DNA from: Elusimicrobiota bacterium
GTDB lineage: Bacteria > Elusimicrobiota > Endomicrobiia > Endomicrobiales > Endomicrobiaceae
Length of the DNA: 64,000 bases
Reading direction: 5' to 3'
NCBI GenBank assembly: GCA_017528425.1
Contig: JAFXOV010000024.1
Coordinates: forward strand, 1-64,000
Under the pieces are notes generated by a model that was given only the letters and a program-made list of their open reading frames with translations, was not told where the DNA came from and ran no database searches. Shown here piece after piece: positions 1 through 48,823 of this stretch; positions within the stretch are counted from its first letter, which is position 1, and every line of letters begins with the position of its first letter. The position numbers and the translations under genes are program-made.

Positions 1-258
1 ATTACATTGTTTACTATCGTTGAACTGTTTATCACTTCTCCGTCTATTATTGTTGCTCCATTACCGAAAATATAATTACTATTTTCTCCGACGGTTAATA
101 CATAATTTCCTGAATTATTTATATTTCCGGTTATATCGCTTGCACTTGTCGTTAATTGTTTATTCTCGTTAATTATTACATTGTTTACTATCGTTGAACT
201 GTTTATCACTTCTCCGTCTATTATTGTTGCTCCATTACCGAAAATATAATTACTATTT
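1..258 (-). repeat. 174-bp tandem repeat inside the giant gene
   Basis: Bases 1-85 recur almost identically at 175-258, giving a period of 174 bp (58 codons, in frame). Each unit encodes FGNGATIIDGEVINSS and STIVNNVIINENK segments. The left copy is cut by the window edge, so further copies may lie outside. Confidence 0.85.
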
Positions 259-3200
259 CCTCCTTCTGCAAAAACTAAACTCGAATTATTTTCTATATCA
301 GCAGTTATATTGCTTGCATTTGCTGTTAAACTTCCACCATCTTTTATTTCTATTTTATTTTGTTCTATTACTGCTTCTGCTAAATTTATATCCACACCAC
401 TTATTGTTGTCGTACCTTTACCAATCACACCCGTTGTAAATGTTGTTGAAGATCCTGAAAGAATTAATTTATTATCATTTAAAACATCTATGTCTACATT
501 ATTTGTGTTGTCGAATATTACACCGGAAAGCTCGACTGTACCCGAGCTTGTTATTATTGCATTTCCGGTATTATTACTAAATTCTACATTTGTTAATTGT
601 AAATTTCCATTAGCATTATTTACTTTTATTGCTTCATTGAAACCTTCTAAATTTACATTATTAATTTGTAATGTATATTCTTCTGTCGTTAGTCCTTCCG
701 CATTCGTTGTACTTTTCAATATCTTATTATTACCGTTTATATTTAAGTTTCCTTTTAATTCGTTATTTATTGTCTCTATAGGATCTTCTATCCATTTTGT
801 TAAATAATCGGTTTCTTCCGTTACAGAATACGAACTTATACCATCATATATAGCATTTGCAAGTCCACCGTATCCTGTTGCTTCTATATTCAACAGTGTG
901 TTGGAATTAGAATCTACTTCCGTCGTTACTGCATAACTTAAATTTGTTGTATAAATCTTTAAATTATTCTGATCTATAGTTGCATTTATGTCGTTATCTG
1001 CTATTAGTATACTTGTTTTTGTTGCTTTATCGGACAACAAATGAATATCATTTATTAATGCACTGCTTTCATTACCGACGGTTTGAATATTTATTAAATT
1101 ATCTGCTTTTGCAGATTTTAAATCTACATCTAACTGATATGTCCAGTTTGCTCCATCTTCTATTACTATTGAACTTGCATTAATTGTTCCGGTTGAATTG
1201 TTCTGCGTATTTAAAATTGCTCCGTTACTTATTGATAATGTTGATGTATTTAAACTTTCTTCATTTAATAATTTAAGTCCGGTTCCTAATTTTATGTTGT
1301 TATTGTTTATATATACATCATCGTTAATCGTCACTTCATCATTATTAATATTTATTATTCCGGTCGATAAACCTGATATATTATATGCTATCGTTCCACC
1401 TGTTAAATCTACAGTTCCGTTGTTTGTAAAATCTTTTATTATTGAATTTGCATTAGCAGTAAGGGTACCACCATGTATTGTAAAATCTCCGTTAACAAAA
1501 TTATTTCCCTCGGTTATTATCAAATTACCGTCATAAAGATTTGTTGTTCCTGTCCAACCGCTCATATCTTCATTTAATATTACTTTACCATTTGCTGTTA
1601 AGGTTGTCGTTGAACTGTTAATATTTAAAATACTTGTATCATCTTCACTTGTTATTCTATCGTTGAATATTACATCAGCATTTTCACTTGCCCATAAGTT
1701 TATTGTTCCACCATTATCATATATTGCATTTGATATTCCGTTTGCTGTGTTTCCGGTAAATTCAACATCGTTCGTATTTGCTATCAAGTTTAGAACGTTA
1801 GAATTGTTTATAGCTCCACCTGTTCCATCTGTTGAGTTATTTAAAAACTGTACTCCGTCTTGAAATGTTATTCTTCCAGTTTTATTATTTATAGCTCCGC
1901 CATAATTTGTTGAATAATTTGAATCAAACAATGCATTATTTCCAATAATTAAATTCCCGTCGTTATATATTGCTCCCGAATATGTTGCACTATTTTCGAT
2001 AAATTTCGCATTATTTCCTATTGTTATATCGCTGCCACTATCTATGGCACCTGCACTTCCATGCTCTAATGCTTCATTCTTATAAAAGGTAACATTATCT
2101 CCTATTGTTACAATATCTCTGTTTGTACTTATTGCTCCACCTTGTGCACTTTTATCTTCCGTTCCTATTACCTTGTTGTAACTGAAGTTAGCATCGTTCC
2201 CGATATTCAAAATAGAATCTTCCGAATTAATTGCTCCTCCGAACATCGCTGTATTAGACGTAAAATTCACATTAGAACCTATATCTAAAATACCTCTGTT
2301 GTATATAGCTCCTCCTGAATCATCATTTTTATTAAAATTTTTCCAAACAAATTGTTCTCCAACACCTTTTTCAATATTCAATGTTTGTCCGTTTGATACC
2401 TTTATTCCAGCCTTACCATTTCCATCAACCTCATAACCATTGCCGAATATCGTTAATTGGGTACCACCTAATTGCCCTAAGTTTTCCGTAACTATTTCTT
2501 TTCCTGCGAATGAATATGAACGATACTGTGGAATTGTATCATTTACTACTTCTTTGAATGTTTTTGTTGTTCCTGTTTGTTCGTAATTTAACACACCTGC
2601 TGTATCACTCTTTGTAAATGTATATTCATAACCTCCATAATTTGCCGTTGTCAAAACATTTAATTCCGGTGATATTTCATTGTTGAATAATGTTATTTGT
2701 CCGTTACCAATATTTGTCCCCAATATATTTATCGCTGTTAAATTTAATGTTCCCTCTGCGGTATTTGTTACTGTAAAATTATCACTCGTATTGTTGCTTA
2801 AGTCCGTATCAAATTTTAGATTACTATTTTCTGTTGTTGTTAAATTATTTACTGTTATGTTATCTATTGCATTATTCAAAATGTTTAATGTTCCACTACT
2901 TAAATTTATATTTCCAGTGAAGAATTTATTTGTATTTGTATTATTACCATTAGTTTTTGCTTGTAATTCTATTTCTCCACCATATAAATTAACTTGTCCG
3001 TTATAACCACTCATATCTTCGTTTAATACTACTTTACCTATTGTAGGTAATGTTCCTGATGATTGATTTATATTTAATATACTTGTATCATCACTACTCG
3101 TTATTCTATCGTTAAATATTACACTTGCATTATCACTTGCCCACAAGTTTATTACTCCACCATTAGAATGTATTGCATTGGAAACTCCATTTGCAGTGTT

Positions 3201-6200
3201 CCCTGTAAATTCAACATTGTTCGTATTTGCTATTAATGATATACGAGCTCCATTTCCATTGTAAATTGCACCACCATAAGCATTACCTTCTGTGCTAACT
3301 ACAGTATTAGAACTAAATATAGCTCCGTCAAGAATTTGCAAATGTGTACCAGGATTATAGTTATAAATAGCACCACCATAAGAATCTAATTTCCCTACTG
3401 CATTATTAAATTTTATATTTGCATTTTCACCAACTAATATATTTGTATAAACACTATATATTGCACCACCTCTAGCCCTATCATTCAAACTTTCTGCTTT
3501 ATTTGAATTTAAGTTTAAATTATCACCAATGGTTATATTAGCAGAAGTAGCTGCAATAGCTCCACCATAAGACATATCACTAGCATTTGTAGAATTTGAA
3601 GAAAAAGTTATATTATTTCCAAACATAACTGTAGCTGCAACATCAATTGCACCACCATATGCAAGAAAACCTTGAGCGGTATTTGAAGTAAAGCTGATAT
3701 TATCTGAAAAATTTAATATAGTATTTCCTGTATTTACACCATCACAATTCTGATAAATAGCACCACCTCTAGCATATCCATTATTATTTACTGCATTATT
3801 TTCGTTAAAAACAGTTTCTGAACCGATACTCATATTTCCCATATTATAAATAGCACCACCACCTAAACTTTCTAAACCACTTATTGATTTCGCCGTATTA
3901 CTTGAAAAAATTATATTGTTTCCGATTATAACATTACCTTCTAAATTTGCTACTGCTCCACCATTTCTTGCTGTGTTAGAAGTAAATATAGCATTATCTT
4001 TTATTGTAAGCTCACAATTAGCACTTTCTTTATTATTCCAAATGTTATTTAAAATTGCTCCACCAAAATTATTTGATTGGTTATTTTCAAACAAAGAATA
4101 TTCACCTATTGTCAAATAAGCATTATATATTGTTCCCTCTTGATCTATTCCTGCCAAGTTATGAATTGCTCCTCCACCTGCTAAAATTCCGTCCGTGGTT
4201 TCAACTGCTGTTTCTTTATTATTTGAAAATGTTGCCGAACTCCCTATATTGAAATATCCTAAATTCAATATTGCTCCTCCTCCATTTCCTTGTGATACTG
4301 AATTATTATTAAATTTAGAATTTTTTCCAATTGTAAAATATTTATTTCCGGATTGAGACATTACTGCACCGCCGCCTCTGGTGGATGTATTACTTGTAAA
4401 TGTAACATTATCTCCTATATTTACAGCTCCAAAATAATCATGAATTGCTCCGCCTTGTATTGATGCTGTGTTTGAAGTAAAACTAACATTATCTGCTATA
4501 TTCAACTTTGCATTCGGATTATAGTTATATATTGCACCACCTCTTCCGTTATTTGTTCCTAGTGAAGAATTAGATGTAAAAGATATTCCTTCTCCTATAT
4601 TTAAGGTTCCGTGGTTCATTATTGCACCACCACTATGATTTGTTGTAAAACCATTTATATCTTTTACTCCTTCAATATTTAATATTTGATTTTCATAATA
4701 AATGGTTATACCTTCAACATTGTTTGCATCTATATCATATCCGTTACCGAATATCGTTAATTGTTCTCCTCCTAAATTTTCTAACCCTTCCGTTACTATT
4801 TCGTCTCCAGAAAAGGAATAACTTCTTATCGCCGGTTCTGTTTCATTTACTACTTCTTTAAATGTTTTATATCCCAATAATCTATAATTCAATACTCCTG
4901 CTACATCACTGTTTGTAAACACATATTCTTGACCACCATAGTTTCCTGTCGTTAACACATTCAATTCCGGTGATATTTCATCGTTAAATAATGTTATCTG
5001 TCCTATATTTTCATCTACTCCTAAAATATTTATTGCAGTTAAATTCAATGTTCCTATTGCACTATTTGTTACTGTAAAATTATCACTTGTATTGTTACTT
5101 AGATCTGTATCGAATTTTAAATTTGTATTTGATGTTGTTGTTAAATTGGTTACTGTTATATTATCTATTGAATTGTTTAATATATTCAATGTCCCGCTAC
5201 TTAAATTTATATCACCACTAAAGAATTTGTTTGTATTAACATTTGAACCTTCTTCTGTTTTTGCTTGTAATTCTATTTCTCCACCATGTAAAATTACTGA
5301 ACCTGTATATCCGCTCATATCTTCGTTCAATACTACTTTACCGTTAGCGGTTAAGGTTGTCGTTGAACTGTTGATATTCAAAATACTTGTATTATCTGTA
5401 CTTGTTATTCTGTCGTTAAATATTATATCTGCATATTGACTTGCCCATAAATTTATCGTTCCACCATTAGAATGTATTGCATTTGATATTCCGTTTGCTG
5501 TATTCCCGGTAAATTCTATATTGTTTGTGTTTGCTATTAAATTTACTGTTCTGCTATTTGGTATTTCCGTAATATTATCGTTATATAAATAAATAGCACC
5601 ACCACTTCCATTAGCTCTATTATTTATAAAAGATCCACCATCTAATAAAGTTAATATTCCTTCATTATGTATTGCTCCACCATTTTCTGTTTCAATATTA
5701 TTTGAGAAAGTTACATTTTTACCTATTGTTATATTTCCTCTTTTACTATTATATATTGCACCACCGCTTCCTGCTGAGCTATTTTCATCAAAAGTTGCAC
5801 TTTCTCCTATTGTAAAAATACCTGAATTTGTTATTGCACCACCACAATCCGTTTGTGCTGTATTGTTTATAAATCTTGCATTGTTACCAATGTTTACTGT
5901 TCCGGCATTAATAGTATTATCACTACTATAATTTAATATGGCTCCACCAAATTTATTTGCAGTGTTTGATATAAATGAAACATTATCTAAAATATTTATA
6001 ATACCACCATTATAATTTGATATTGCTCCACCACCACTTGTTGCTGTGTTGGATGTAAATGATGCTCCATCTTTTATTGTTAAATTGGCTATTGTTCCAT
6101 CATGATTTTTACAATTATGTATTGCTCCACCACTTCCTGATGTTCCGGTATTATTTGAAATAAAGTTTGCATTTTCGTCTATTAACATTGTTCCGAAATT

Positions 6201-9200
6201 TGCTATCGCGCCACCATTTGCACCATTAGCTGTAATCGTTGTTTTATTTAATTCAAATTTTGAATTTTTACCTATATTTATTGTTCCTGTTTCATTATAT
6301 ATTGCACCACCATTTTGTGTTGCTGTATTTGAACTAAACGTCGCATTATCTCCAATTTGTATATGTGTTGCAGTATTTGAACTACTGGAACCAACATATA
6401 AACTTGCTATTGCTCCACCATTGTATGCAGAATTATTATTAAATGTTGCTGTTGAACCGATTGTTATTATTCCGGAATTATTGAATATTGCTCCACCTAA
6501 ACCTATTGCCGTATTATTTAAGAATTTTGTATTTGAACTTATTGCTATTTGCCCTATAGTATCTTTATAATCATTTTTAGAATTGTATATTGCTCCGCCT
6601 TCATTGATTGAATTGTTATATTCAAAAACATTATTTTCACCTATTATTGCCGTTGCACTAATATTACTAAGTGCTCCACCATAATTTGCAGTATTTGAAC
6701 TAAATAAAATATAATCACCGATATTTACATTTGCTACAAAATCACCATTTATATACATTGCATTCGATATTGCACCACCATTAGTTGTTGCTTGATTCAA
6801 AACAAAACTTGTTCCGGAAGAAACGGTTAATGTTCCGCAATTTTCAATTGCTCCGCCTTCACCGTTTGTTGCTCTATTATTTTCAAAATAATTATCATTT
6901 CCAATGCTCATACTTCCTGATTCAAAATTTAGTAATGCACCACCTACCTGTGCCGAATTATTATAATAATATCCATTATCTTCTATATTTAAATATCCGT
7001 TATTATAAATAACACCGCCATAAAGTGTTGACGAATTTGTAGAAAAATTTATATTTGAACCTAAATTTAATGTCGCTCCTGAAGCAACATAAAATACACC
7101 ACCTTCACTGGTTTTGCTAAAACTATTCCAACTAAAATCTTCACCAATACTTTTATCAATGTTTAATATTTGGCTTTCAGATACATTTATTCCGGCTCTT
7201 TCATTTCCATCAATTTCATATCCGTTTCCGAATATTGTTAATTGTTCTCCACCTAAATTTCCTAAATCATCCGTTACTATCTCATCTTCCGAAAAAGAAT
7301 AACTTCTTATCGCAGGTTCTATTGCATTCACTACTTCTTTAAAAGTTTTTGCAACCAGTCCGGTTTTTTCATAATTCAAAACGCCTGATATATCACTATT
7401 TGTAAATGTATATTCATACCCACCATAATTTCCAGTAGTCAAAACATTTAATGTTGGCGATTTTCCATCATTAAACAAGGTTATTTGTCCACTATCCTCA
7501 TTTACTCCTAACAAATTTATTGCCGTTAAATTCAAGATTCCCGTCGCACTATTTTTTACTGTAAAATTATCACTTGTGTTATTACTCAAATCCGTATCAA
7601 ATTTTAGGCTTGTATTTACCGTACTTGTCCAAGTTGATAGTGTTACATTATCTATCGTATTATTTAGTATGTTCAAAGTTCCACTTGATAAGTTTATATT
7701 CCCACTGAAGAATTTATTTGTATTTATGTTGTCTGCTTCAGTTGTTTTTGCCTGTAATTCTATTTCTCCACCATATAAATTTACTTGGCCTGTATATCCG
7801 CTCATATCTTCGTTCAATACTACTTTTCCTACTGCATTTAATGTTGTCGTTGAACTGTTGATATTTAATGTACTTGAGTTTTTTTTACTTGTTATCCTAT
7901 CATTGAAAATTATATCGGCATTTTCACTTGCCCATAAATTTATTGTTCCTTTATTATCATCATGTATTGCATTTGATATTCCGTTTGCTGTATTTCCTGT
8001 AAATTCAACATTTTTTTTATTTGCTATAAGATTCAATGTACCTATACTTAAAATTGCTCCGCCATAAGATTGTGATATATTATCTGTAAAACTTGAATCT
8101 TCTATTATTAATGTTCCTCCATTAGAAAGTGCTCCAGCAGTAGTTGTAGCAGTATTTTTATTAAAAACCGTTGATTTTATTATTGTTGTTGCTAATATAT
8201 TACTGTTATCTATAGCTCCACCAACTGCAGCAGTATTAGAATCAAAAATACTTGAACTGATTATTATTGTTCCTGAACTATTATAAATTGCTCCGCCATA
8301 AGCAGATTTACCTGCTATACCAGTTGCTATGTTTGAACTGAACACATTTGAATTTATTGTTATTGTTCCAGTACTATTAAAAATTGCACCACCACGACCT
8401 GCTGAACTATTTTGTTCGAATGTTACATTTTCTCCTATTGTAATATTACCTGCATTATTTATTGCACCACCAGTTCCATCAGTTTGATTTCTACTGAACA
8501 TTGATGAACTTATTATTATTGTTCCACCTTCTTCATTAGCTATTGCTCCACCATAGCTTTGTGCAGAATTTCCAATAAAAGTAGAGGATGATATTGTTGT
8601 TGTTCCTTTTAAATTTTGTATTGCTCCTCCACTTTGTGTTGCTATATTTGAACTAAACGCTGTAGCATAAACATTTAGTATTCCATCTTCAGTGTTTTCT
8701 AGTGCTCCTCCCCACAAAGTAGCCATATTGTTTGTAAAAGTAGAAGAACTAATATCTGTTATTCCACCAAAATTAATTACAGCTCCACCACATTTTGCTG
8801 TGTTTGAAGTAAATACATTTGAATCTACATTCAAAGTATTGTTATTATAAATTGCGCCACCCCATCTGGTTCCCGTATTCGAAGAAAACTCAACATTTTC
8901 TGATATATTTGTTGTCCCTTCATTAAAAATAACAGTACCATGTCCAGTTTTACTAAAATTTTCCCAAACAAAATTTTCTCCTGTTCCTTTTTCGATATTT
9001 AATTTTTGACCGCTTCCTACTGTTATACCTGCTTTTGAACTTCCATTTACCTCATAACCGTTACCGAATATCGTTAGTTGTGTGCCACCTAAATTTCCTA
9101 AATCTTCCGTTACTATTTCATTTTCTGCTAATGAGTAACTCCTTACTAAGGGTTCCGTTGCATTTACTACTCCTTTAAATGTTTGTTGAACTCCCGTTTT

Positions 9201-11948
9201 TTGATAGTTTAATATTCCTGCTACATCGCTATTTGTGAACGTATATTCATATCCCCCATAACTTGCATTTGTTAATATGTTCAAGGTAGGTGATTTTGAA
9301 TTATTGAATAAAGTTATTTGACCACTATCTCCACTTACATCCAATATATTTATTGCTGCTAAATTTAATTCTCCTGTTGCATTATTTGTTACTGTGAAAT
9401 TATCACTTGTATTGTTGCTTAAATCCGTATCAAATTTTAAATTTGCATTTGCTGTTGTAGTTAAATTACTTACCATTATATTATCTACTGCACTGTTTAA
9501 TATGTTCAGTGTTCCACTACTTAAGTTTATATTCCCACTGAAGAATTTGTTCGTATTTACATTTGAACCTTCTTCTGTTTTAGCTTGTAATTCTAGTTCT
9601 CCATCATATAAAACAACTGTTCCTACATAACCACTCATATCTTCATTTAATACTACTTTACCTGCTATACCCGTTAATGGAGTTGAAATATTAACTTGTA
9701 AAGAATTTACTAATATTCCTGTTGAAATATTAATATGTAAATCACTTGAATAATATTCATCAGATGATATTCTATCGTTAAAAATAATTTTTGCATTTTC
9801 ACTTGCCCATAAAAATATTCTTCCACCACTATCATGTATTGCATTTGATACTCCATTTGCTGTATTTCCTGTAAATTCTATATTGTCTGTGTTTGCTATT
9901 AAATGTATTCTTCCGCTGTTATTAAATATTGCACCACCTCGAAAATTTGCTACATTATTTTTAAATTCTGTGCCACCTTCAATTGTCACTATTCCATAAT
10001 CATTACATATTGCACCACCTAATCGAGATGCTGTATTTGAAGAAAATATAACATCTGAACCTATATTCAAAGTCCCTTCATTAATATCATGAATTACCCC
10101 ACCATCATAATTTCCAACAAAATTACTCCAAGTAAAATTTTCACCAATGCCTTTATAAATATTCAATGTTTGATCCATACCTATCTGTATCCCATTTGTA
10201 CCATTTCCATCAACTTCATATCCATTACCAAATATCGTTAGTTGTGTGCCACCTAAATTTCCTAAATCTTCCGTAACTGTTTCATTTCCTGCTAATGAGT
10301 AACTTCTTATTGGAGGTTCCGTTTTATTTACTGCATTCTTTAAATCTAATTCTGCTCCTCTTTCATAATTTAATACACCAGTTGTTCCACTATTTGTAAA
10401 AGTATATTCATATCCACCATAACTTGCACTTGTTAATATATTTAATGTTGGTGATTTTGTATTCTTAAATAATGTTATTTGTCCGCTATCCTCATTTACT
10501 CCTAACAAATTTATTGCACTTAAATTCAATTCCCCGCTTGCACTATTTGTTACGGTAAAATTATCACTCGTATTATTGCTTAAATTTGCATCAAATTTTA
10601 AATTACTATTTTCTGTTGATGTAAAATTACTTACTGTTATATTGTCTATTGCATTATTCAAAATGTTTAATGTTCCACTACTTAAATTGATATCGCCACT
10701 AAAGAATTTATTTGTATTGACATTTCCACTTTTCTTTGCCTGTAGTTCTATTTCTCCGTTATACAGGTTTACTTTTCCTGTATAACCACTCATATCCTCA
10801 TTCAAAACTATTTTGCCATTTGCCGTTAATGTCGTTGTTGATTTATTTATATTAGTTGTTCCTGAACCCTTTATTCTGTCGTTAAATATTACATCTGCAT
10901 TCTCACTTGCCCACAAGTTTATTGTTCCACCACTACTATTTATTGCATTTGATACTCCGTTTGCCGTATTACCAGTAAATTCAATATTATTTGTGTTTGC
11001 TACTAAATTTATTGTTTTTCCTTCATTATATATTGCACCGCCGTTAGTTGCTGCTGTATTGTTTGTAAATTTTGCACCATCTAATATTGTTACTGTTCCA
11101 ACATTATAGATAGCACCACCAGAATTATATGCTTTGTTTGAATCAAATATTGCATTACTTCCTAATATCAAACTACCTTGATAATTATTGATTGCACCAC
11201 CATTTTTATATACATTGTTAGAAGTAAAAACAGAATCTGAGCCAATGGTTATTTTTGAATTAGTATTGTTAAAAATGGCTCCACCATATCCTCTTTTGTT
11301 TCCATCCCCAGTGCGAGCAAAATTATTATTAAATATCACATTATTACCTATTTGAATATCACCTTTTTCTGTATTATATATTGCTCCACCATATGCTCTT
11401 CCATTAATTTCAACAGAACTAACAGCAAAATTACCATCAAATTTACAGTTGTCATCTATTACTATCTTACCACCGTCGTTATAAATTGCTCCACCATACA
11501 TATATTTTCCACTACCACTAATTGCTTGATGATGAACATTATTAGATTTAAAAGTTATATTATCTCCAATATTCAAATTCCCTTTATTATAAATTGCACC
11601 ACCTTTAAAATAGAGGATATCGTCAACTTCTGTATATTTTTCGTCATTATTAAAATTGCTCCAAACAAAACTGTTCCCAGAACCTTTATTTATATTTAAT
11701 GTGTTATCTTTACCTATTGTTACTCCCATATAATTTGCTCCATAAACTTCGTAACCATTACCATACACTGTCAAATTGCCTAATAACACACCCAAATCTG
11801 CAGTTACTGTTTCTTTTTTTGTTAATGAATAAGTTTTGTTTGAACCTGAAGCAGTTATAGCCGTTTTTAGATTACTATAAGCTGCAAGAGCAAAGGAAGA
11901 GAATAATATTATCGATGCTAAAACTAAAAATGATTTTATCTTTTTCAT
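1..11948 (-). CDS. Giant Pmp-like repeat surface protein (probable autotransporter/adhesin), C-terminus outside window
   Basis: A single open frame runs from an ATG at 11946-11948 off the left edge (at least 3982 codons). I read it through and saw no stop. Six anchor motifs (NEDMSG; ATG codons at 10791, 9636, 7803, 5316, 3012, 1563) all fall in the same frame, so no net frameshift exists. The N-terminus MKKIKSFLVLASIILFSS followed by FALA-AYSN is a Sec signal peptide. The rest is Asn/Ser/Thr/Gly-rich with about 60 GGA[I/V/L] motifs (GGAIYN is commonest) alternating with F-x-x-N motifs such as FSSNTA and FTSNTA. This is the hallmark of chlamydial polymorphic membrane protein (Pmp) passenger domains, which form a beta-helix. 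A Shine-Dalgarno GGAG lies 7 nt before the ATG. A C-terminal autotransporter barrel is expected beyond the window but not seen. Surface adhesin is inference; that it is secreted and repetitive is directly visible. Confidence 0.9.
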   Translation of the reverse strand, partial: MKKIKSFLVLASIILFSSFALAAYSNLKTAITASGSNKTYSLTKKETVTADLGVLLGNLTVYGNGYEVYGANYMGVTIGKDNTLNINKGSGNSFVWSNFNNDEKYTEVDDILYFKGGAIYNKGNLNIGDNITFKSNNVHHQAISGSGKYMYGGAIYNDGGKIVIDDNCKFDGNFAVSSVEINGRAYGGAIYNTEKGDIQIGNNVIFNNNFARTGDGNKRGYGGAIFNNTNSKITIGSDSVFTSNNVYKNGGAINNYQGSLILGSNAIFDSNKAYNSGGAIYNVGTVTILDGAKFTNNTAATNGGAIYNEGKTINLVANTNNIEFTGNTANGVSNAINSSGGTINLWASENADVIFNDRIKGSGTTNINKSTTTLTANGKIVLNEDMSGYTGKVNLYNGEIELQAKKSGNVNTNKFFSGDINLSSGTLNILNNAIDNITVSNFTSTENSNLKFDANLSNNTSDNFTVTNSASGELNLSAINLLGVNEDSGQITLFKNTKSPTLNILTSASYGGYEYTFTNSGTTGVLNYERGAELDLKNAVNKTEPPIRSYSLAGNETVTEDLGNLGGTQLTIFGNGYEVDGNGTNGIQIGMDQTLNIYKGIGENFTWSNFVGNYDGGVIHDINEGTLNIGSDVIFSSNTASRLGGAICNDYGIVTIEGGTEFKNNVANFRGGAIFNNSGRIHLIANTDNIEFTGNTANGVSNAIHDSGGRIFLWASENAKIIFNDRISSDEYYSSDLHINISTGILVNSLQVNISTPLTGIAGKVVLNEDMSGYVGTVVLYDGELELQAKTEEGSNVNTNKFFSGNINLSSGTLNILNSAVDNIMVSNLTTTANANLKFDTDLSNNTSDNFTVTNNATGELNLAAINILDVSGDSGQITLFNNSKSPTLNILTNASYGGYEYTFTNSDVAGILNYQKTGVQQTFKGVVNATEPLVRSYSLAENEIVTEDLGNLGGTQLTIFGNGYEVNGSSKAGITVGSGQKLNIEKGTGENFVWENFSKTGHGTVIFNEGTTNISENVEFSSNTGTRWGGAIYNNNTLNVDSNVFTSNTAKCGGAVINFGGITDISSSTFTNNMATLWGGALENTEDGILNVYATAFSSNIATQSGGAIQNLKGTTTISSSTFIGNSAQSYGGAIANEEGGTIIISSSMFSRNQTDGTGGAINNAGNITIGENVTFEQNSSAGRGGAIFNSTGTITINSNVFSSNIATGIAGKSAYGGAIYNSSGTIIISSSIFDSNTAAVGGAIDNSNILATTIIKSTVFNKNTATTTAGALSNGGTLIIEDSSFTDNISQSYGGAILSIGTLNLIANKKNVEFTGNTANGISNAIHDDNKGTINLWASENADIIFNDRITSKKNSSTLNINSSTTTLNAVGKVVLNEDMSGYTGQVNLYGGEIELQAKTTEADNINTNKFFSGNINLSSGTLNILNNTIDNVTLSTWTSTVNTSLKFDTDLSNNTSDNFTVKNSATGILNLTAINLLGVNEDSGQITLFNDGKSPTLNVLTTGNYGGYEYTFTNSDISGVLNYEKTGLVAKTFKEVVNAIEPAIRSYSFSEDEIVTDDLGNLGGEQLTIFGNGYEIDGNERAGINVSESQILNIDKSIGEDFSWNSFSKTSEGGVFYVASGATLNLGSNINFSTNSSTLYGGVIYNNGYLNIEDNGYYYNNSAQVGGALLNFESGSMSIGNDNYFENNRATNGEGGAIENCGTLTVSSGTSFVLNQATTNGGAISNAMYINGDFVANVNIGDYILFSSNTANYGGALSNISATAIIGENNVFEYNNSINEGGAIYNSKNDYKDTIGQIAISSNTKFLNNTAIGLGGAIFNNSGIITIGSTATFNNNSAYNGGAIASLYVGSSSSNTATHIQIGDNATFSSNTATQNGGAIYNETGTINIGKNSKFELNKTTITANGANGGAIANFGTMLIDENANFISNNTGTSGSGGAIHNCKNHDGTIANLTIKDGASFTSNTATSGGGAISNYNGGIINILDNVSFISNTANKFGGAILNYSSDNTINAGTVNIGNNARFINNTAQTDCGGAITNSGIFTIGESATFDENSSAGSGGAIYNSKRGNITIGKNVTFSNNIETENGGAIHNEGILTLLDGGSFINNRANGSGGAIYLYNDNITEIPNSRTVNLIANTNNIEFTGNTANGISNAIHSNGGTINLWASQYADIIFNDRITSTDNTSILNINSSTTTLTANGKVVLNEDMSGYTGSVILHGGEIELQAKTEEGSNVNTNKFFSGDINLSSGTLNILNNSIDNITVTNLTTTSNTNLKFDTDLSNNTSDNFTVTNSAIGTLNLTAINILGVDENIGQITLFNDEISPELNVLTTGNYGGQEYVFTNSDVAGVLNYRLLGYKTFKEVVNETEPAIRSYSFSGDEIVTEGLENLGGEQLTIFGNGYDIDANNVEGITIYYENQILNIEGVKDINGFTTNHSGGAIMNHGTLNIGEGISFTSNSSLGTNNGRGGAIYNYNPNAKLNIADNVSFTSNTASIQGGAIHDYFGAVNIGDNVTFTSNTSTRGGGAVMSQSGNKYFTIGKNSKFNNNSVSQGNGGGAILNLGYFNIGSSATFSNNKETAVETTDGILAGGGAIHNLAGIDQEGTIYNAYLTIGEYSLFENNQSNNFGGAILNNIWNNKESANCELTIKDNAIFTSNTARNGGAVANLEGNVIIGNNIIFSSNTAKSISGLESLGGGAIYNMGNMSIGSETVFNENNAVNNNGYARGGAIYQNCDGVNTGNTILNFSDNISFTSNTAQGFLAYGGAIDVAATVMFGNNITFSSNSTNASDMSYGGAIAATSANITIGDNLNLNSNKAESLNDRARGGAIYSVYTNILVGENANIKFNNAVGKLDSYGGAIYNYNPGTHLQILDGAIFSSNTVVSTEGNAYGGAIYNGNGARISLIANTNNVEFTGNTANGVSNAIHSNGGVINLWASDNASVIFNDRITSSDDTSILNINQSSGTLPTIGKVVLNEDMSGYNGQVNLYGGEIELQAKTNGNNTNTNKFFTGNINLSSGTLNILNNAIDNITVNNLTTTENSNLKFDTDLSNNTSDNFTVTNTAEGTLNLTAINILGTNIGNGQITLFNNEISPELNVLTTANYGGYEYTFTKSDTAGVLNYEQTGTTKTFKEVVNDTIPQYRSYSFAGKEIVTENLGQLGGTQLTIFGNGYEVDGNGKAGIKVSNGQTLNIEKGVGEQFVWKNFNKNDDSGGAIYNRGILDIGSNVNFTSNTAMFGGAINSEDSILNIGNDANFSYNKVIGTEDKSAQGGAISTNRDIVTIGDNVTFYKNEALEHGSAGAIDSGSDITIGNNAKFIENSATYSGAIYNDGNLIIGNNALFDSNYSTNYGGAINNKTGRITFQDGVQFLNNSTDGTGGAINNSNVLNLIANTNDVEFTGNTANGISNAIYDNGGTINLWASENADVIFNDRITSEDDTSILNINSSTTTLTANGKVILNEDMSGWTGTTNLYDGNLIITEGNNFVNGDFTIHGGTLTANANSIIKDFTNNGTVDLTGGTIAYNISGLSTGIININNDEVTINDDVYINNNNIKLGTGLKLLNEESLNTSTLSISNGAILNTQNNSTGTINASSIVIEDGANWTYQLDVDLKSAKADNLINIQTVGNESSALINDIHLLSDKATKTSILIADNDINATIDQNNLKIYTTNLSYAVTTEVDSNSNTLLNIEATGYGGLANAIYDGISSYSVTEETDYLTKWIEDPIETINNELKGNLNINGNNKILKSTTNAEGLTTEEYTLQINNVNLEGFNEAIKVNNANGNLQLTNVEFSNNTGNAIITSSGTVELSGVIFDNTNNVDIDVLNDNKLILSGSSTTFTTGVIGKGTTTISGVDINLAEAVIEQNKIEIKDGGSLTANASNITADIENNSSLVFAEGGNSNYIFGNGATIIDGEVINSSTIVNNVIINENKQLTTSASDITGNINNSGNYVLTVGENSNYIFGNGATIIDGEVINSSTIVNNV
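1530..1797 (-). repeat. Giant-protein module block, copy F (incomplete)
   Basis: Sixth copy. It matches the others from the IANTN segment to the anchor (here NEDMSGWTG) and then diverges into a different Asn-rich passenger sequence. It marks the end of the modular part, about 1.5 kb before the left edge. Confidence 0.8.
2420..3243 (-). repeat. Giant-protein module block, copy E
   Basis: Fifth copy of the block, preceded by a helix segment with about 15 GGA[I/V/L] motifs. Edges are approximate. Confidence 0.85.
4727..5550 (-). repeat. Giant-protein module block, copy D
   Basis: Fourth copy of the block. The helix segment before it (about 5550-7205) is the longest, with about 18 GGA[I/V/L] motifs. 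Edges are approximate. Confidence 0.85.
7205..8040 (-). repeat. Giant-protein module block, copy C
   Basis: Third copy of the block. It is preceded by a helix segment with about 10-12 GGA[I/V/L] motifs, many with the variant ISSSxF spacing. Edges are approximate. Confidence 0.85.
9045..9910 (-). repeat. Giant-protein module block, copy B
   Basis: Second copy of the block, slightly longer because of a short insertion before the NEDMSGY anchor. Only about three GGA[IV] motifs separate it from copy A, the shortest helix segment in the protein. Edges are approximate. Confidence 0.85.
10210..11010 (-). repeat. Giant-protein module block, copy A
   Basis: First of six copies (N-terminal) of a block of roughly 270 codons. 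It runs from a LxANTNNIEFTGNTANG segment through NEDMSGY, KFFSG.INLSSGTLN, LSNNTSDNFTV and YGGYEYTFTNS to a GNLGGTQLTIFGNGYEV segment. Edges are approximate. Seven GGAI motifs lie between the signal peptide and this copy. Confidence 0.85.
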
Positions 11949-12200: not shown

Positions 12201-12977
12201 TTATTCTATATTATCCAACAACTTTTTTGTGTATTCATGTACGGGGTGTTCAAAAATTTCTTCTTTACTTTTTTGTTCCACTATTTCCCCTTTATACATT
12301 ACGGCAACATAATCGGAATATTTCTTTGCTATCAAAATATTATGAGTTATCATTATCATCGTTAAATTTAATTCTTTTTTAAGTTCCGCAAACAGTTCCA
12401 AGATTTGTTTTTGGACGGTTAAATCAAGTCCGGATGTCGGCTCGTCGGCGATAAGAAGTTTAGGATTGTTTATTATAGCCATAGCAATTAAAATTCTTTG
12501 TTTTTGACCGCCCGATAACTGATGCGGATAAGAATTATAAATTCTTTCAAAATCGTCGAGTTTTACTTTTTCAAAAACTTCTTTTACTCTTTTTATTTTT
12601 TCTTCTTTGCTTAAATTTTTATTGTATACTTCCAATGCTTCCGAAACTTGTTTTCCCACGATTATTACAGGATTTAAATAAGAGTGAGGATCCTGCAAAA
12701 CTATAGAAAGTTCTTTTCCTCTTGTTTTATTTATATTTGAAATTAAATCATTACCGCAAAATGTTATATTTCCTTTTTCTATTTTACCGTTATCAATTGA
12801 AATAAGTCCCATTAAGCCGAGTGCAAGCGTGCTTTTACCCGAACCGGATTGTCCGACTATAGCACAAGTTTTTCCCTCTTCAATATCAAGACTTACATTT
12901 TTCAAAACTTCCTGATATTTTGAATTCACATAATAACCGGCATATAGATTTTTAACAGATAAAATTATTTTATTCAA
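12201..12977 (-). CDS. Peptide/nickel-type ABC transporter ATP-binding protein (DppD/OppD-like)
   Basis: The ATPase couples ATP hydrolysis to import through the two permeases encoded just upstream. Visible motifs are a Walker A (GQSGSGKST, about residue 42), a Q-loop (VLQDPHSYLNP, typical of the Opp/Dpp family), a signature LSGGQKQR and a Walker B LLIADEPTSGLD. At 258 aa it is shorter than usual OppD (about 330) and lacks the C-terminal oligopeptide-transporter extension. The start is TTG at 12975-12977, with AAGGGA about 8 nt upstream. No second ATPase (OppF) or binding protein follows, and next downstream is the giant gene with its own promoter. The partner components must be elsewhere or absent. 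The substrate is not determinable. Confidence 0.88.
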   Translation of the reverse strand: MNKIILSVKNLYAGYYVNSKYQEVLKNVSLDIEEGKTCAIVGQSGSGKSTLALGLMGLISIDNGKIEKGNITFCGNDLISNINKTRGKELSIVLQDPHSYLNPVIIVGKQVSEALEVYNKNLSKEEKIKRVKEVFEKVKLDDFERIYNSYPHQLSGGQKQRILIAMAIINNPKLLIADEPTSGLDLTVQKQILELFAELKKELNLTMIMITHNILIAKKYSDYVAVMYKGEIVEQKSKEEIFEHPVHEYTKKLLDNIE

Positions 12978-13010
12978 AATTTTTCCCTTATTTTATTCAA
13001 CTATTTTTTA

Positions 13011-13040
13011 TAGATTGCCACGCTTCGCTCACAATGACAA
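13011..13040 (+). repeat. Dispersed palindromic repeat, GCCACG-type copy
   Basis: TAGATTGCCACGCTTCGCTC followed by ACAATGACAA. It shares the TATAGATT...AATGACA frame with the other copies but has a different core. It lies between oppC and oppD. Confidence 0.6.
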
Positions 13041-13060
13041 ATCAAAAAGAAATTAACTTT

Positions 13061-13090
13061 TATAGATTCCGTATCAAGTACGGAATGACA
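13061..13090 (+). repeat. Dispersed palindromic repeat, TTCCGTA copy
   Basis: The core has a perfect 7-bp inverted repeat TTCCGTA-TCAAG-TACGGAA, flanked by TATAGA and TGACA. It is 20 bp from the GCCACG-type copy, so two elements interrupt the transporter operon. Confidence 0.7.
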
Positions 13091-13103
13091 AACTAACAAA
13101 AAC

Positions 13104-13940
13104 TTACTTAATATTTTCTTCCTTAGGATCAAAAATATCCCTTATTGCTTCGCCTACCAAATTAAATGCTAACACTGTTACGAGTATTGCAATACCGGGA
13201 AAGAGAGATAACCACCATGCCATATAAATATAATCTTTACCCGATGTAAGAATTTGCCCCCACGACGGCATCGGAGGTTGGACTCCCAGCCCCAAAAACG
13301 AGAGAGCGGATTCCGTAAGTATTGCTCCGCCTATCGCAAGTGACGAATATACCATTAACGGTGAAATAATGTTCGGCAATATGTGAACAAAAAATATTTT
13401 TATATTGCTTATTGCCATCATTTTGGAAACCAAAATAAATTCTCTTTCTTTCAGTGATAATACTTCCGCTCTAACAAGTCTTGCAAGTCCCGGCCATGAT
13501 GTAACACCGATAACAATCATAACGTTGTAAATATTAGGTTCTATAAACGCTATAACAAGTATAATAAGGAAAAATGTAGGAAAACATAAAACGATATCGG
13601 TAAATCTCATTATTATATAATCTATTTTGCCGCCGTAATAACCGGAAATTATCCCTAAAAAAGTTCCTATAACAAGAATTATAAATACTGAAATGAATCC
13701 TACGGCAAGTGATATTCTTGCACCGAAAATCATTCTTGTAAAAACATCTCTTCCCAAATCATCAGTTCCGAAAATATGATTTATTGAAGGAGATTGTAAT
13801 CTTTCAAACACATTTTGTTCCGACGGGGTATAAGGAGAAATAACGGGAGCAAATAAAGCAACAACTATTAACAAAGTTATTACTGTTAATCCCGTTAAAG
13901 CAAACTTATTTTTTAATAATTTTATTAAAACATTTTTCAT
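13104..13940 (-). CDS. Peptide-type ABC transporter permease (DppC/OppC-like)
   Basis: This is an inner-membrane permease subunit of 278 aa. The N-terminus has a cytoplasmic stretch then a TM segment (FALTGLTVITLLIVVALFAP), followed by the family's SPYTP and GTDDLGRDVFTRMIFGARIS motif typical of DppC. The C-terminal half has the EAA loop region (ILPNIISPLMVYSSLAIGGA) and GLGVQPPMPSWG. It forms the translocation channel with the next gene upstream. It is 30 nt downstream of the oppB-like gene and is separated from the ATPase gene by two palindromic repeats. Confidence 0.92.
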   Translation of the reverse strand: MKNVLIKLLKNKFALTGLTVITLLIVVALFAPVISPYTPSEQNVFERLQSPSINHIFGTDDLGRDVFTRMIFGARISLAVGFISVFIILVIGTFLGIISGYYGGKIDYIIMRFTDIVLCFPTFFLIILVIAFIEPNIYNVMIVIGVTSWPGLARLVRAEVLSLKEREFILVSKMMAISNIKIFFVHILPNIISPLMVYSSLAIGGAILTESALSFLGLGVQPPMPSWGQILTSGKDYIYMAWWLSLFPGIAILVTVLAFNLVGEAIRDIFDPKEENIK

Positions 13941-13970
13941 TCTTATTGTTTATTAATTACCAATTGTCGT

Positions 13971-14939
13971 CTATTTGTACTTAATCCTCGGATCCGCATA
14001 AGTATATAAAATATCCGCAATAATATTTCCGAGCAATGTAAGTATTGCCGTCAATGTAGCTATTCCCATAACTATCGGGTAATCTCTTGCCATTACTGCT
14101 TCATAACCTAATCTTCCTATACCGGGATATGAAAATATCGTTTCAAAAATAAAACTTCCGCCAATAAGTCCGGGAATAGAAAGACCAATTATCGTTATCA
14201 TCGGTAAAAGTGTATTTTTTAATGCATGTTTAAAAATAACTTGTTTTTCTGTTAACCCTTTTGCATAAGCAGTTTTAATATAATCTTGTTTTAAAACTTC
14301 GAGCATTCCCGAACGAGTATATCTTGATAAAGATGCAAGAGAAACTATAACCGAAACAGCCACGGGCAATATCAAATGTTTTGTAATATCAAAAATTTTT
14401 TCGAATATGTTCATCGTATCAAAATCAAAAGACACAAGCCCCGATATCGGCAGCCACCCCAATTGAACGCCGAACAATATCATAAACATTAAAGCCAACC
14501 AAAAGGACGGAACGGAATAAGATATGAACAAAAGAATAGTTATAGATTTATCCGCAAAAGAATCCTTTTTTATGGCACAATATATTCCGAGAGGTATGGA
14601 AATAAGACAAATAAAAAATAACGATAAAACATTAAGTAAAATAGTTGCAGGTAACCTTTCGAATATTTTATCTCTGGCAGAACGAGAATCCTTAAAAGAA
14701 TTTCCGAAATCAAAGACAACCAATCTTTTAAGCCAATCGGCATATTGAACATAAAAAGGTTTGTCTAAACCGTATAATTGTTGTAACCTTTCTTTTGCTT
14801 CTGCAGTAACTTTCATATTCATATCGGTGATCGAATCGGTAGGTTTACCGGGAGTAATGTGCATAATGAAGAAAGTTATTATTGTTATTCCTATAAGTAT
14901 CGGAATTGATGATATTATTCTTTTAATAAAGTAGTACAT
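13971..14939 (-). CDS. Peptide-type ABC transporter permease (DppB/OppB-like)
   Basis: This 322-aa inner-membrane protein opens with YFIKRIISSIPILIGITIIT, the typical DppB/OppB first TM, followed by FFIMHITPGKP. Later features are GDVLS-like GNSFKDSRSA, five further hydrophobic segments and the EAA motif region (KHALKNTLLPMITIIGLSIP) and ETIFSYPGIGRLGYEA. It is 5 nt downstream of def, so it shares an operon with alaS and def. It partners the DppC-like protein. Confidence 0.93.
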   Translation of the reverse strand: MYYFIKRIISSIPILIGITIITFFIMHITPGKPTDSITDMNMKVTAEAKERLQQLYGLDKPFYVQYADWLKRLVVFDFGNSFKDSRSARDKIFERLPATILLNVLSLFFICLISIPLGIYCAIKKDSFADKSITILLFISYSVPSFWLALMFMILFGVQLGWLPISGLVSFDFDTMNIFEKIFDITKHLILPVAVSVIVSLASLSRYTRSGMLEVLKQDYIKTAYAKGLTEKQVIFKHALKNTLLPMITIIGLSIPGLIGGSFIFETIFSYPGIGRLGYEAVMARDYPIVMGIATLTAILTLLGNIIADILYTYADPRIKYK

Positions 14940-38607: not shown

Positions 38608-39693
38608 TTATCTTTTTGCAAAAATTGCTATATCGTTACCAAAGTTTTTTATTTCAAATTTTTTAAATTTTAACGAATCTTTTATAAATTTTACTCCGTC
38701 ACCTTCAACAAAAGTTTTCGCATTTCTTCCGCCGACAATTATCGGAGCAATAAATAAAATAACTTCATCAACTTTTTTTGCACTAATAACGGAAGAATTT
38801 ATTTCCCCTCCGCCTTCGATTAATATTCTCTTTAAAGCCATCTTATTTAGTTTTTCTATTATCACATTAAAATCTTTTTTTGCTTGCTTAAAGTTTATGG
38901 AAACCAACTTTATACACTCTTTATTAAAATGTTTCGGTATTCTTTTTGTTTTTTCATCGTATAATATTATCGTAGGTATTGTACCGTCGACAACATTATA
39001 GTTGGAAGGAATTTTTAATTTTTCATCCAAAATTACTCTTACAGGGTTTTTACCGTAACCTCTTGATGACAACATAGGATTATCTTTAAGAACCGTGTTT
39101 GTTCCTACAAGAATTGCATCAAATTTCGTTCTTAGTTTATGAACGAACTTTCTCGATTTTTCGTTTGATATCCATTTCGAATCACCCATATAAGTTGCGA
39201 TTTTACCGTCTAAGGAAACTGCTGATTTTATAAGTATATACGGTTTTATATTCTTTATATGATTAATATACTCTTTGTTTAATTGTTCGGCTTGTTTTTC
39301 CAATATACCGTTAATCACGGTTATTCCTGCCGTTTTTAATTTTTTAAAACTTTTACCGCTAGTTAACGGGTTAGGATCTTTCATTGCACAAACAACTGTT
39401 TTTATTTTAGATTTTATTATTAAATCTACACAGGGTGGACATTTTCCCCAATTATTGCAAGGTTCCAAGTTAACATATAAAGTAGAACCTTCAACTTTTG
39501 TTTTTGAAGATTTTATTGCATCTGCCTCTGCATGAGCGGCACCGAAATATTTGTGATAACCCTTTGAAATTATTTTACCGTCTTTTACCAATAATGCACC
39601 TACCATCGGATTAGGAAAAACATAACCGGTTCCTTTTTTTGCCAAATCCAATACTAACTGCATGTATTTTTTATGTTCTTGTTTTTTTATCAT
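38608..39693 (-). CDS. ribD: Bifunctional pyrimidine deaminase/reductase
   Basis: This fusion performs the second and third steps of the pyrimidine branch of riboflavin synthesis. The N-terminal deaminase domain shows PNPMVGALLVKDGKIISKGY, AHAEADAI (zinc His and catalytic Glu) and LEPCNNWGKCPPC. The C-terminal reductase has KSAVSLDGKIATYMGDSKWI, GTNTVLKDNPMLSSRG and ILIEGGGEINSSVI (NADPH-binding). The length of 361 aa is typical. It is first in the operon, directly after the FMN riboswitch terminator. Confidence 0.96.
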   Translation of the reverse strand: MIKKQEHKKYMQLVLDLAKKGTGYVFPNPMVGALLVKDGKIISKGYHKYFGAAHAEADAIKSSKTKVEGSTLYVNLEPCNNWGKCPPCVDLIIKSKIKTVVCAMKDPNPLTSGKSFKKLKTAGITVINGILEKQAEQLNKEYINHIKNIKPYILIKSAVSLDGKIATYMGDSKWISNEKSRKFVHKLRTKFDAILVGTNTVLKDNPMLSSRGYGKNPVRVILDEKLKIPSNYNVVDGTIPTIILYDEKTKRIPKHFNKECIKLVSINFKQAKKDFNVIIEKLNKMALKRILIEGGGEINSSVISAKKVDEVILFIAPIIVGGRNAKTFVEGDGVKFIKDSLKFKKFEIKNFGNDIAIFAKR

Positions 39694-39732: not shown

Positions 39733-39754
39733 AACGACTAATAAAACATATTGT

Positions 39755-39885
39755 TTCTTCTCTCATCCGGACTGTACCGTCGGCATCCGATTCTCACGGA
39801 TTCATTTCACCTGCTATGGTGAAGTCGTAGGCTTAGCTCTTTTGGAGCATCACTACCGGTAAGGATTTTCACCTTCCCCGAAGAA
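39755..39885 (-). ncRNA. FMN riboswitch (RFN element)
   Basis: The minus strand carries the RFN landmarks in order: CTTCGGGGAAGGTGAAAATCC, CTTACCGGTAGTGATG, GAGCTAAGCC, CCGTGAGAATCGGATGCCGA, ACAGTCCGGATGAGAGAAG. P1 pairs TTCTTC (39880-39885) with GAAGAA (39755-39760). It binds FMN and controls ribD-ribE-ribBA-ribH, most likely by transcription termination. Confidence 0.97.
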
Positions 39886-39932
39886 TTATTTTTATTTATT
39901 GTATATCTTTTATATATAAAAAGCAACAACCG

Positions 39933-47128: not shown

Positions 47129-47205
<77 letters not shown>

Positions 47206-48737: not shown

Positions 48738-48823
48738 TGCCGAGGGCGGGACTTGAACCCGCACGCCGCCTAAGCAACTTGAGATTTTGAGTCTCACGTG
48801 TCTGCCAATTCCACCACCTCGGC
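48738..48823 (-). tRNA. tRNA-Leu (CAA)
   Basis: An 86-nt class II tRNA: acceptor GCCGAGG/CCTCGGC, anticodon loop CTCAAAA (anticodon CAA, reads UUG), long variable arm and T-arm GCGGGTTCAAGTCCCGC. The 3' CCA is not encoded (discriminator A then CTT), unlike the tRNA-fMet 1.5 kb away. Confidence 0.96.

Follow-up and report, generated by a model that had tools for sequence, protein, structure and literature searches.

The closest described systems to the protein reported here are the chlamydial Pmps, such as PmpB and PmpD of C. trachomatis (PF02415, PMP_M and PF03797), with which it shares a beta-helix built of GGA/FxxN rungs, a middle domain in which the Asp at the transition is invariant, a C-terminal autotransporter barrel and, putatively, a signal peptide. 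Chlamydial Pmps comprise 9-25 rungs, and a 'Rung 0' Asp that seeds the Asn ladder is found in all 123 of those examined (PMC10715098). Outside Chlamydia, Pmp-like proteins have been reported from Akkermansia glycaniphila (A0A1C7PBX1, with 43 coils), Phycisphaerae, Methanobrevibacter and Trichomonas (PMC11166332, PMC10715098). They present the same tetrapeptide motifs and predicted beta-helix as the protein studied here, which contains repeated middle domains, a trait not described for them in these two sources. Passenger replication is known from BigE, a beta-proteobacterial autotransporter of 10,429 aa whose passenger segment is replicated eight-fold (PMC3419190). Both proteins have tandem replication of a passenger segment, short internal repeats and a single barrel, whereas BigE carries a BrkA-related passenger and an EstA-type barrel, and not Pmp motifs. 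Finally, Elusimicrobiota show a statistical excess of huge proteins (>5000 aa), to which the survey describing it assigned no orthologous-group class (PMC11573180), and the literature searched contained nothing relevant on Pmps or autotransporters in Elusimicrobia.

The present protein, referred to here as the giant, is encoded by a rumen Ruminimicrobiellum (Elusimicrobiota, Endomicrobiaceae), and differs from the chlamydial Pmps in its phylum, in its six serial passengers in place of one and in its length of at least 4,760 aa. The window, that is, the whole stretch of 64,000 nucleotides that was analysed, corresponds to C34:1-64000 of a draft genome (G000, 2.08 Mb in 64 contigs). At 3..11948 on the minus strand it contains a frame of 3982 codons that starts with ATG, immediately 3' of a GGAG ribosome-binding site, includes no stop and is open at the contig start, with its 3' end past the contig edge. 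The GC content by codon position is 36/40/15% (genome GC 32%), the pattern expected for a true coding sequence. By inspection, the N-terminal residues 1-23 (MKKIKSFLVLASIILFSSFALA, followed by A; 11880..11948, minus strand) look like a putative Sec signal peptide. The frame contains 55 strict GGA[ILV] motifs, or 63-68 when relaxed forms are counted, and 72 FxxN motifs; in 500 residue shuffles of the protein the corresponding means were 0.8 (maximum 5) for GGA[ILV] and 24.6 (maximum 38) for FxxN. Both motifs alternate over long stretches, with a GGA-to-GGA gap of 24-38 residues within a run. The Pfam profile Chlam_PMP (PF02415) matches the giant with 140.9 bits (E 4.6e-43, curated cut-off 20.6 bits) and the NCBIfam profile POMP_repeat with an E-value of 8.6e-8. 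The first-pass annotation, which had described one frame open over 11.9 kb with at least 3982 codons, about 60 GGAI-type motifs and a GGA/FxxN alternation as in chlamydial Pmps, is thus borne out by the absence of stops, the motif counts, the shuffles, the spacing and the profile search that it had proposed as a check.

The frame is organised in six tandem passenger modules, all on the minus strand. Each of them follows the same layout, in which a cap (SYS[LF]...VTEDLGNLGG.QLTIFGNGYE) precedes 2-16 GGA/FxxN rungs and these are followed by a domain of about 240 aa, hereafter the middle-like domain. Module 1 (aa 1-548, 10305..11948) consists of the cap, 7 GGA motifs and the middle-type domain; module 2 (aa 549-936, 9141..10304) has 2 GGA motifs, module 3 (aa 937-1548, 7305..9140) 10, module 4 (aa 1549-2375, 4824..7304) 16 and module 5 (aa 2376-3143, 2520..4823) 15, while module 6 (aa 3144-3982, 3..2519) goes on into a second contig, C18. 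Within the window, the protein's longest run comprises 16-20 motif rungs, which falls inside the chlamydial range of 9-25. The size of the giant results from copying whole passengers and not from one very long helix. On the basis of this anatomy, the giant is very probably a series of six Pmp passengers. A structure prediction for one module, also proposed beforehand as a check, gave a regular beta-helix for residues 937-1800 (864 aa), a stretch that includes module 3, with an overall pLDDT of 83.8; the repeat runs are mostly above 90, and values below 50 occur inside the middle-like domain in this model, which was built without a deeper alignment. When the 864-aa model was compared with the PDB by Foldseek, generic beta-helices alone were retrieved, all of them non-significant, and a profile search against PDB sequences with the modules or the middle domain gave no match.

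The middle-like domain is present in five full copies within the giant, the others being 71-79% identical to the reference copy. These are copy 1 (10305..11012, Asp seed aa 357), copy 2 (9141..9911, aa 725), copy 3 (7305..8036, aa 1350; model pLDDT 88, pTM 0.85), copy 4 (4824..5546, aa 2179) and copy 5 (2520..3242, aa 2947), all on the minus strand. A sixth is divided into a first half in the window (1419..1793, minus strand, Asp seed aa 3430) and a second half directly N-terminal of the barrel (C18:88600-89007), and the region between both halves ends in a 174-bp tandem repeat. Autochaperones and the middle region of chlamydial Pmps occupy the position directly before the barrel. The same genus also has ordinary autotransporters with one or two modules, and in these the final copy of the domain mostly ends 308-367 aa from the C-terminus, adjoining the barrel. 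The Asp in the '[IV]IFNDRI' motif of this domain is invariant (29 out of 29 aligned copies), typically lies about 30 residues, or about one rung, C-terminal of the last FxxN Asn, and occurs once per module and six times in the giant. It would match the chlamydial Rung-0 Asp, an equivalence drawn from position and not from superposition.

When the model of copy 3 was compared with the PDB, pertactin was the top match (E 2.1e-4, probability 1.00), followed by Hap, EspC, IgA1 protease, Hbp and SepA, all of them autotransporter passengers. The TM-scores are low (<=0.43), so that the likeness to pertactin covers part of the fold and is not a superposition; weak matches to PF03212 (Pertactin) agree with a pertactin-like fold. 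Both from its position and from this partial likeness in the model, the domain resembles an autochaperone. Pertactin and other type Va autotransporters share with it the partial fold and the pre-barrel position; unlike them, the giant repeats the pre-barrel-type domain internally, in five full copies. In contrast to the middle domain of chlamydial Pmps, that of the giant is not recognised by PF07548, which found no match in the giant or in 30 copies of the domain, and the giant is therefore not claimed as a member of the chlamydial Pmp family proper. A phage tail-fibre origin is unsupported, as a Foldseek comparison between the middle domain and viral models returned nothing significant. In a tree of middle domains the giant's copies are intermixed with those of sister species and support is mostly low, so the order of duplication cannot be read from it.

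Several elements of this architecture are already known, namely non-chlamydial Pmp-like proteins, a Pmp-like autotransporter of 43 coils, eight-fold passenger replication and the huge proteins of Elusimicrobiota. As far as the literature searched shows, the new elements are the combination of traits, the recurrence of a middle/autochaperone-like domain that bears a seed Asp, and the recognition of the Endomicrobiaceae giants as Pmp-type autotransporters. The lengthening of an autotransporter by copying whole passengers, including the presumed folding domain, makes the folding of very long exported passengers accessible to testing.

In established autotransporter biology, the passenger folds outside the cell, C-terminus first. 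The complete explanation considered here, namely that the giant is a Pmp-like type Va autotransporter forming a long jointed fibre that serves as adhesin or spacer, is probably correct. The signal peptide would direct crossing of the inner membrane, and the only C-terminal barrel, on C18, would be inserted through BamA; the genome encodes an Omp85 protein of the BamA type (1053-aa frame, E 3.2e-64), and BamBCD have been reported absent in Endomicrobiaceae (PMC11257099). By the presumed export route and folding order, the passenger would then exit C-terminus first, and six right-handed beta-helix segments would form outside, each beginning at its own middle/autochaperone-like domain, whose invariant Asp would seed the ladder of Asn residues in the FxxN rungs. 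Together these segments would make up a long, jointed fibre on the cell surface, rich in variable loops and tying the cell, as adhesin or spacer, to the surface of a partner, for which rumen ciliates are the leading, though speculative, candidate. The balance leans, by a modest margin, towards each module being a self-contained folding unit. A further proposal, that the internal middle-like domains act as a folding relay in which each nucleates its own segment on emerging and thereby lifts the length limit of autotransport, is doubtful at present. If it were true, symbionts could build modular fibres of 4,000-8,000 aa or more, of a length set by the number of modules, to grip gut protists.

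As for its function, an adhesin role of some kind is rather likely. Endomicrobia are enriched on rumen ciliates, where they account for up to 10% of the bacteria in ciliate fractions (PMC6217230), and Endomicrobiaceae 16S from picked Isotricha falls within the Ruminimicrobiellum radiation (PMC11257099, citing unpublished data). This association makes ciliate attachment the leading idea, and self-association its main rival. Ciliates can be named as a tentative target of the giant, with the chances somewhat against them; if they are indeed bound, the giant would be a candidate attachment factor in a bacterium-protist association of the rumen, paralleling the Pmps in Chlamydia. A protein of self-association (Ag43-like clumping or biofilm formation) or a protective coat, in place of an adhesin for a foreign host, is somewhat unlikely. 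The structural neighbours of the module, all non-significant, include Antigen 43 and PfbA, loop-rich multiple modules could interlock from cell to cell, and homo- and hetero-oligomers are reported for fragments of chlamydial Pmps (PMC8326573). Nothing specific speaks against this reading, but the protist association reported for the lineage fits attachment at least equally well (PMC11257099, PMC6217230). More improbable is a polyprotein, with the exported passenger being cleaved into Pmp units that work independently of each other and not as one fibre. The low-confidence stretch modelled within each module's middle-like domain would suit such cleavage, as does the post-export processing of chlamydial PmpD passengers mentioned in PMC3419190, yet no conserved protease site was identified.

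The preferred reading, a single anchored fibre, depends on the continuation of the frame into the barrel on C18, a contig of 90 kb. Both C34 and C18 end within one 174-bp (58-aa) repeat, which in the window occupies 1..329 (minus strand), where it is cut by the contig end, and continues at the right end of C18 with 4.8 copies. The terminal 320 bp of C34 have this right end as their sole other match in the genome. From the contig edge, C18 carries 812 aa in the same frame, with the same repeats and a PF03797 barrel (E 1.7e-27) followed by a stop. Between both ends no exact overlap of 10-300 nt was found, and with 7 mismatches in 99 nt the repeat copies that face each other are probably separate ones. 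The whole protein would measure at least about 4,760 aa if these copies were one; since they differ, a minimum of about 4,820 aa is more likely.

The gene order of sister species agrees with this junction. Directly upstream of the giant lie an ABC transporter ATPase gene of the oligopeptide type (OppD/OppF-like; 12201..12977) and, as further synteny anchors, two oligopeptide-type permease genes (13104-13940 and 13971-14939), all on the minus strand. In G006, G003 and G002 the ABC ATPase is directly followed by a homologue (81-88% identical) of the 777-784-aa autotransporter that adjoins the barrel on C18. In G001 and G009 its direct successor is a second ABC ATPase, which is the next gene along C18. 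As the flanks of both contig ends adjoin in the sisters, the giant represents an extra gene within an oligopeptide-type transporter cluster, and its absence from the locus in the sister species examined indicates that it is dispensable for the genus. In the present genome, two ABC ATPase genes bracket the autotransporter genes (window 12201-14939 and C18 84513-90092), whereas in G001 and G009 they are adjacent.

From the common repeat and this synteny, the continuation of the giant into the C18 barrel appears highly probable, in line with the leftward extension to an autotransporter barrel that had been suggested as a check. A frame that is not joined to that barrel, either ending near the contig edge, being a broken remnant or being released without anchor, is very improbable. 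The junction does fall in an unassembled repeat, but a unique repeat is common to both contig ends in one frame, the flanks are syntenic in sisters, 3982 + 812 codons contain no stop, and there are homologues (G001:C250, G002:C26) whose repeats and barrel share a single frame or come close to doing so. An assembly artefact in which modules were collapsed or joined from different genes of the family is hardly credible, despite the fragmentation of the draft into 64 contigs, several of which carry related Pmp genes, because at the DNA level the modules are no more than 72-78% identical and the exact repeats between them measure about 40 nt, a divergence at which an assembler is unlikely to confuse them, and similar giants exist in a closed PacBio genome.

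That closed genome (G019), which matches Endomicrobium proavitum, encodes Pmp frames of 8,163 aa (C1:792767-817255) and 7,051 aa (327293-348445), both ending in PF03797 barrels and with an identical C-terminal stretch after the barrel. Other relatives have frames of 6,626 aa (G003) and 6,578 aa. Giants with barrels in a closed genome and in other relatives show that such proteins are real and a family trait. Accordingly, the first-pass statement that the protein is far bigger than chlamydial Pmps (roughly 1000-1800 aa) holds as a contrast with Chlamydia, yet its size is ordinary within Endomicrobiaceae. PF02415 was detected in 30 of 61 related genomes, all 30 among the 37 of the same family and none among the 24 outside it. 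Pmp giants probably explain part of the excess of huge proteins in Elusimicrobiota. The giant shares phylum and size class with the proteins surveyed there, and the Endomicrobiaceae ones seen here are Pmp-type autotransporters, so that at least part of that excess now has a molecular identity. Relatives with one passenger occur as well. One of them, in G002, has the same repeats and a 62-65% identical C-terminus and is distributed over two frames, probably split through an indel in the repeat; G001 contains a comparable one. The number of passengers thus differs between species.

Besides the giant, G000 contains two further Pmp-type pieces, C61 (L021) 1-9582, of 3194 aa, with the N-terminus present and the C-terminus cut by the contig end, and C37 (L022) 1-9042, of 3014 aa, with the barrel present and the N-terminus cut by the contig end. 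Both may belong to one protein of >6,200 aa, comparable to the frame of 6,626 aa in G003. In C37 (aa 2520-3004), as in G034:C41 and G015:C50, an OmpA peptidoglycan-binding domain follows PF03797 in the same frame. Such a domain behind the barrel is unusual among autotransporters and could tether a long fibre to the cell wall. In the one-passenger relative in G001 (L065, G001:C250 10887-15284), the barrel is followed by a charged tail that is coiled-coil-like and about 100 aa long. The middle-like domain is carried by Candidatus Ruminimicrobiellum and by other Elusimicrobia of the rumen. Weak copies (L041, L043, L044) were also seen in Gastranaerophilales/Melainabacteria and in one alphaproteobacterial gut genome, where their similarity possibly reflects exchange among gut bacteria. 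Elsewhere in the window, two tRNA genes are located at 47129-47202 and 48738-48823, and the gene at 38608-39693 is preceded by an FMN riboswitch (RF00050, 99 bits; 39751-39889, minus strand).
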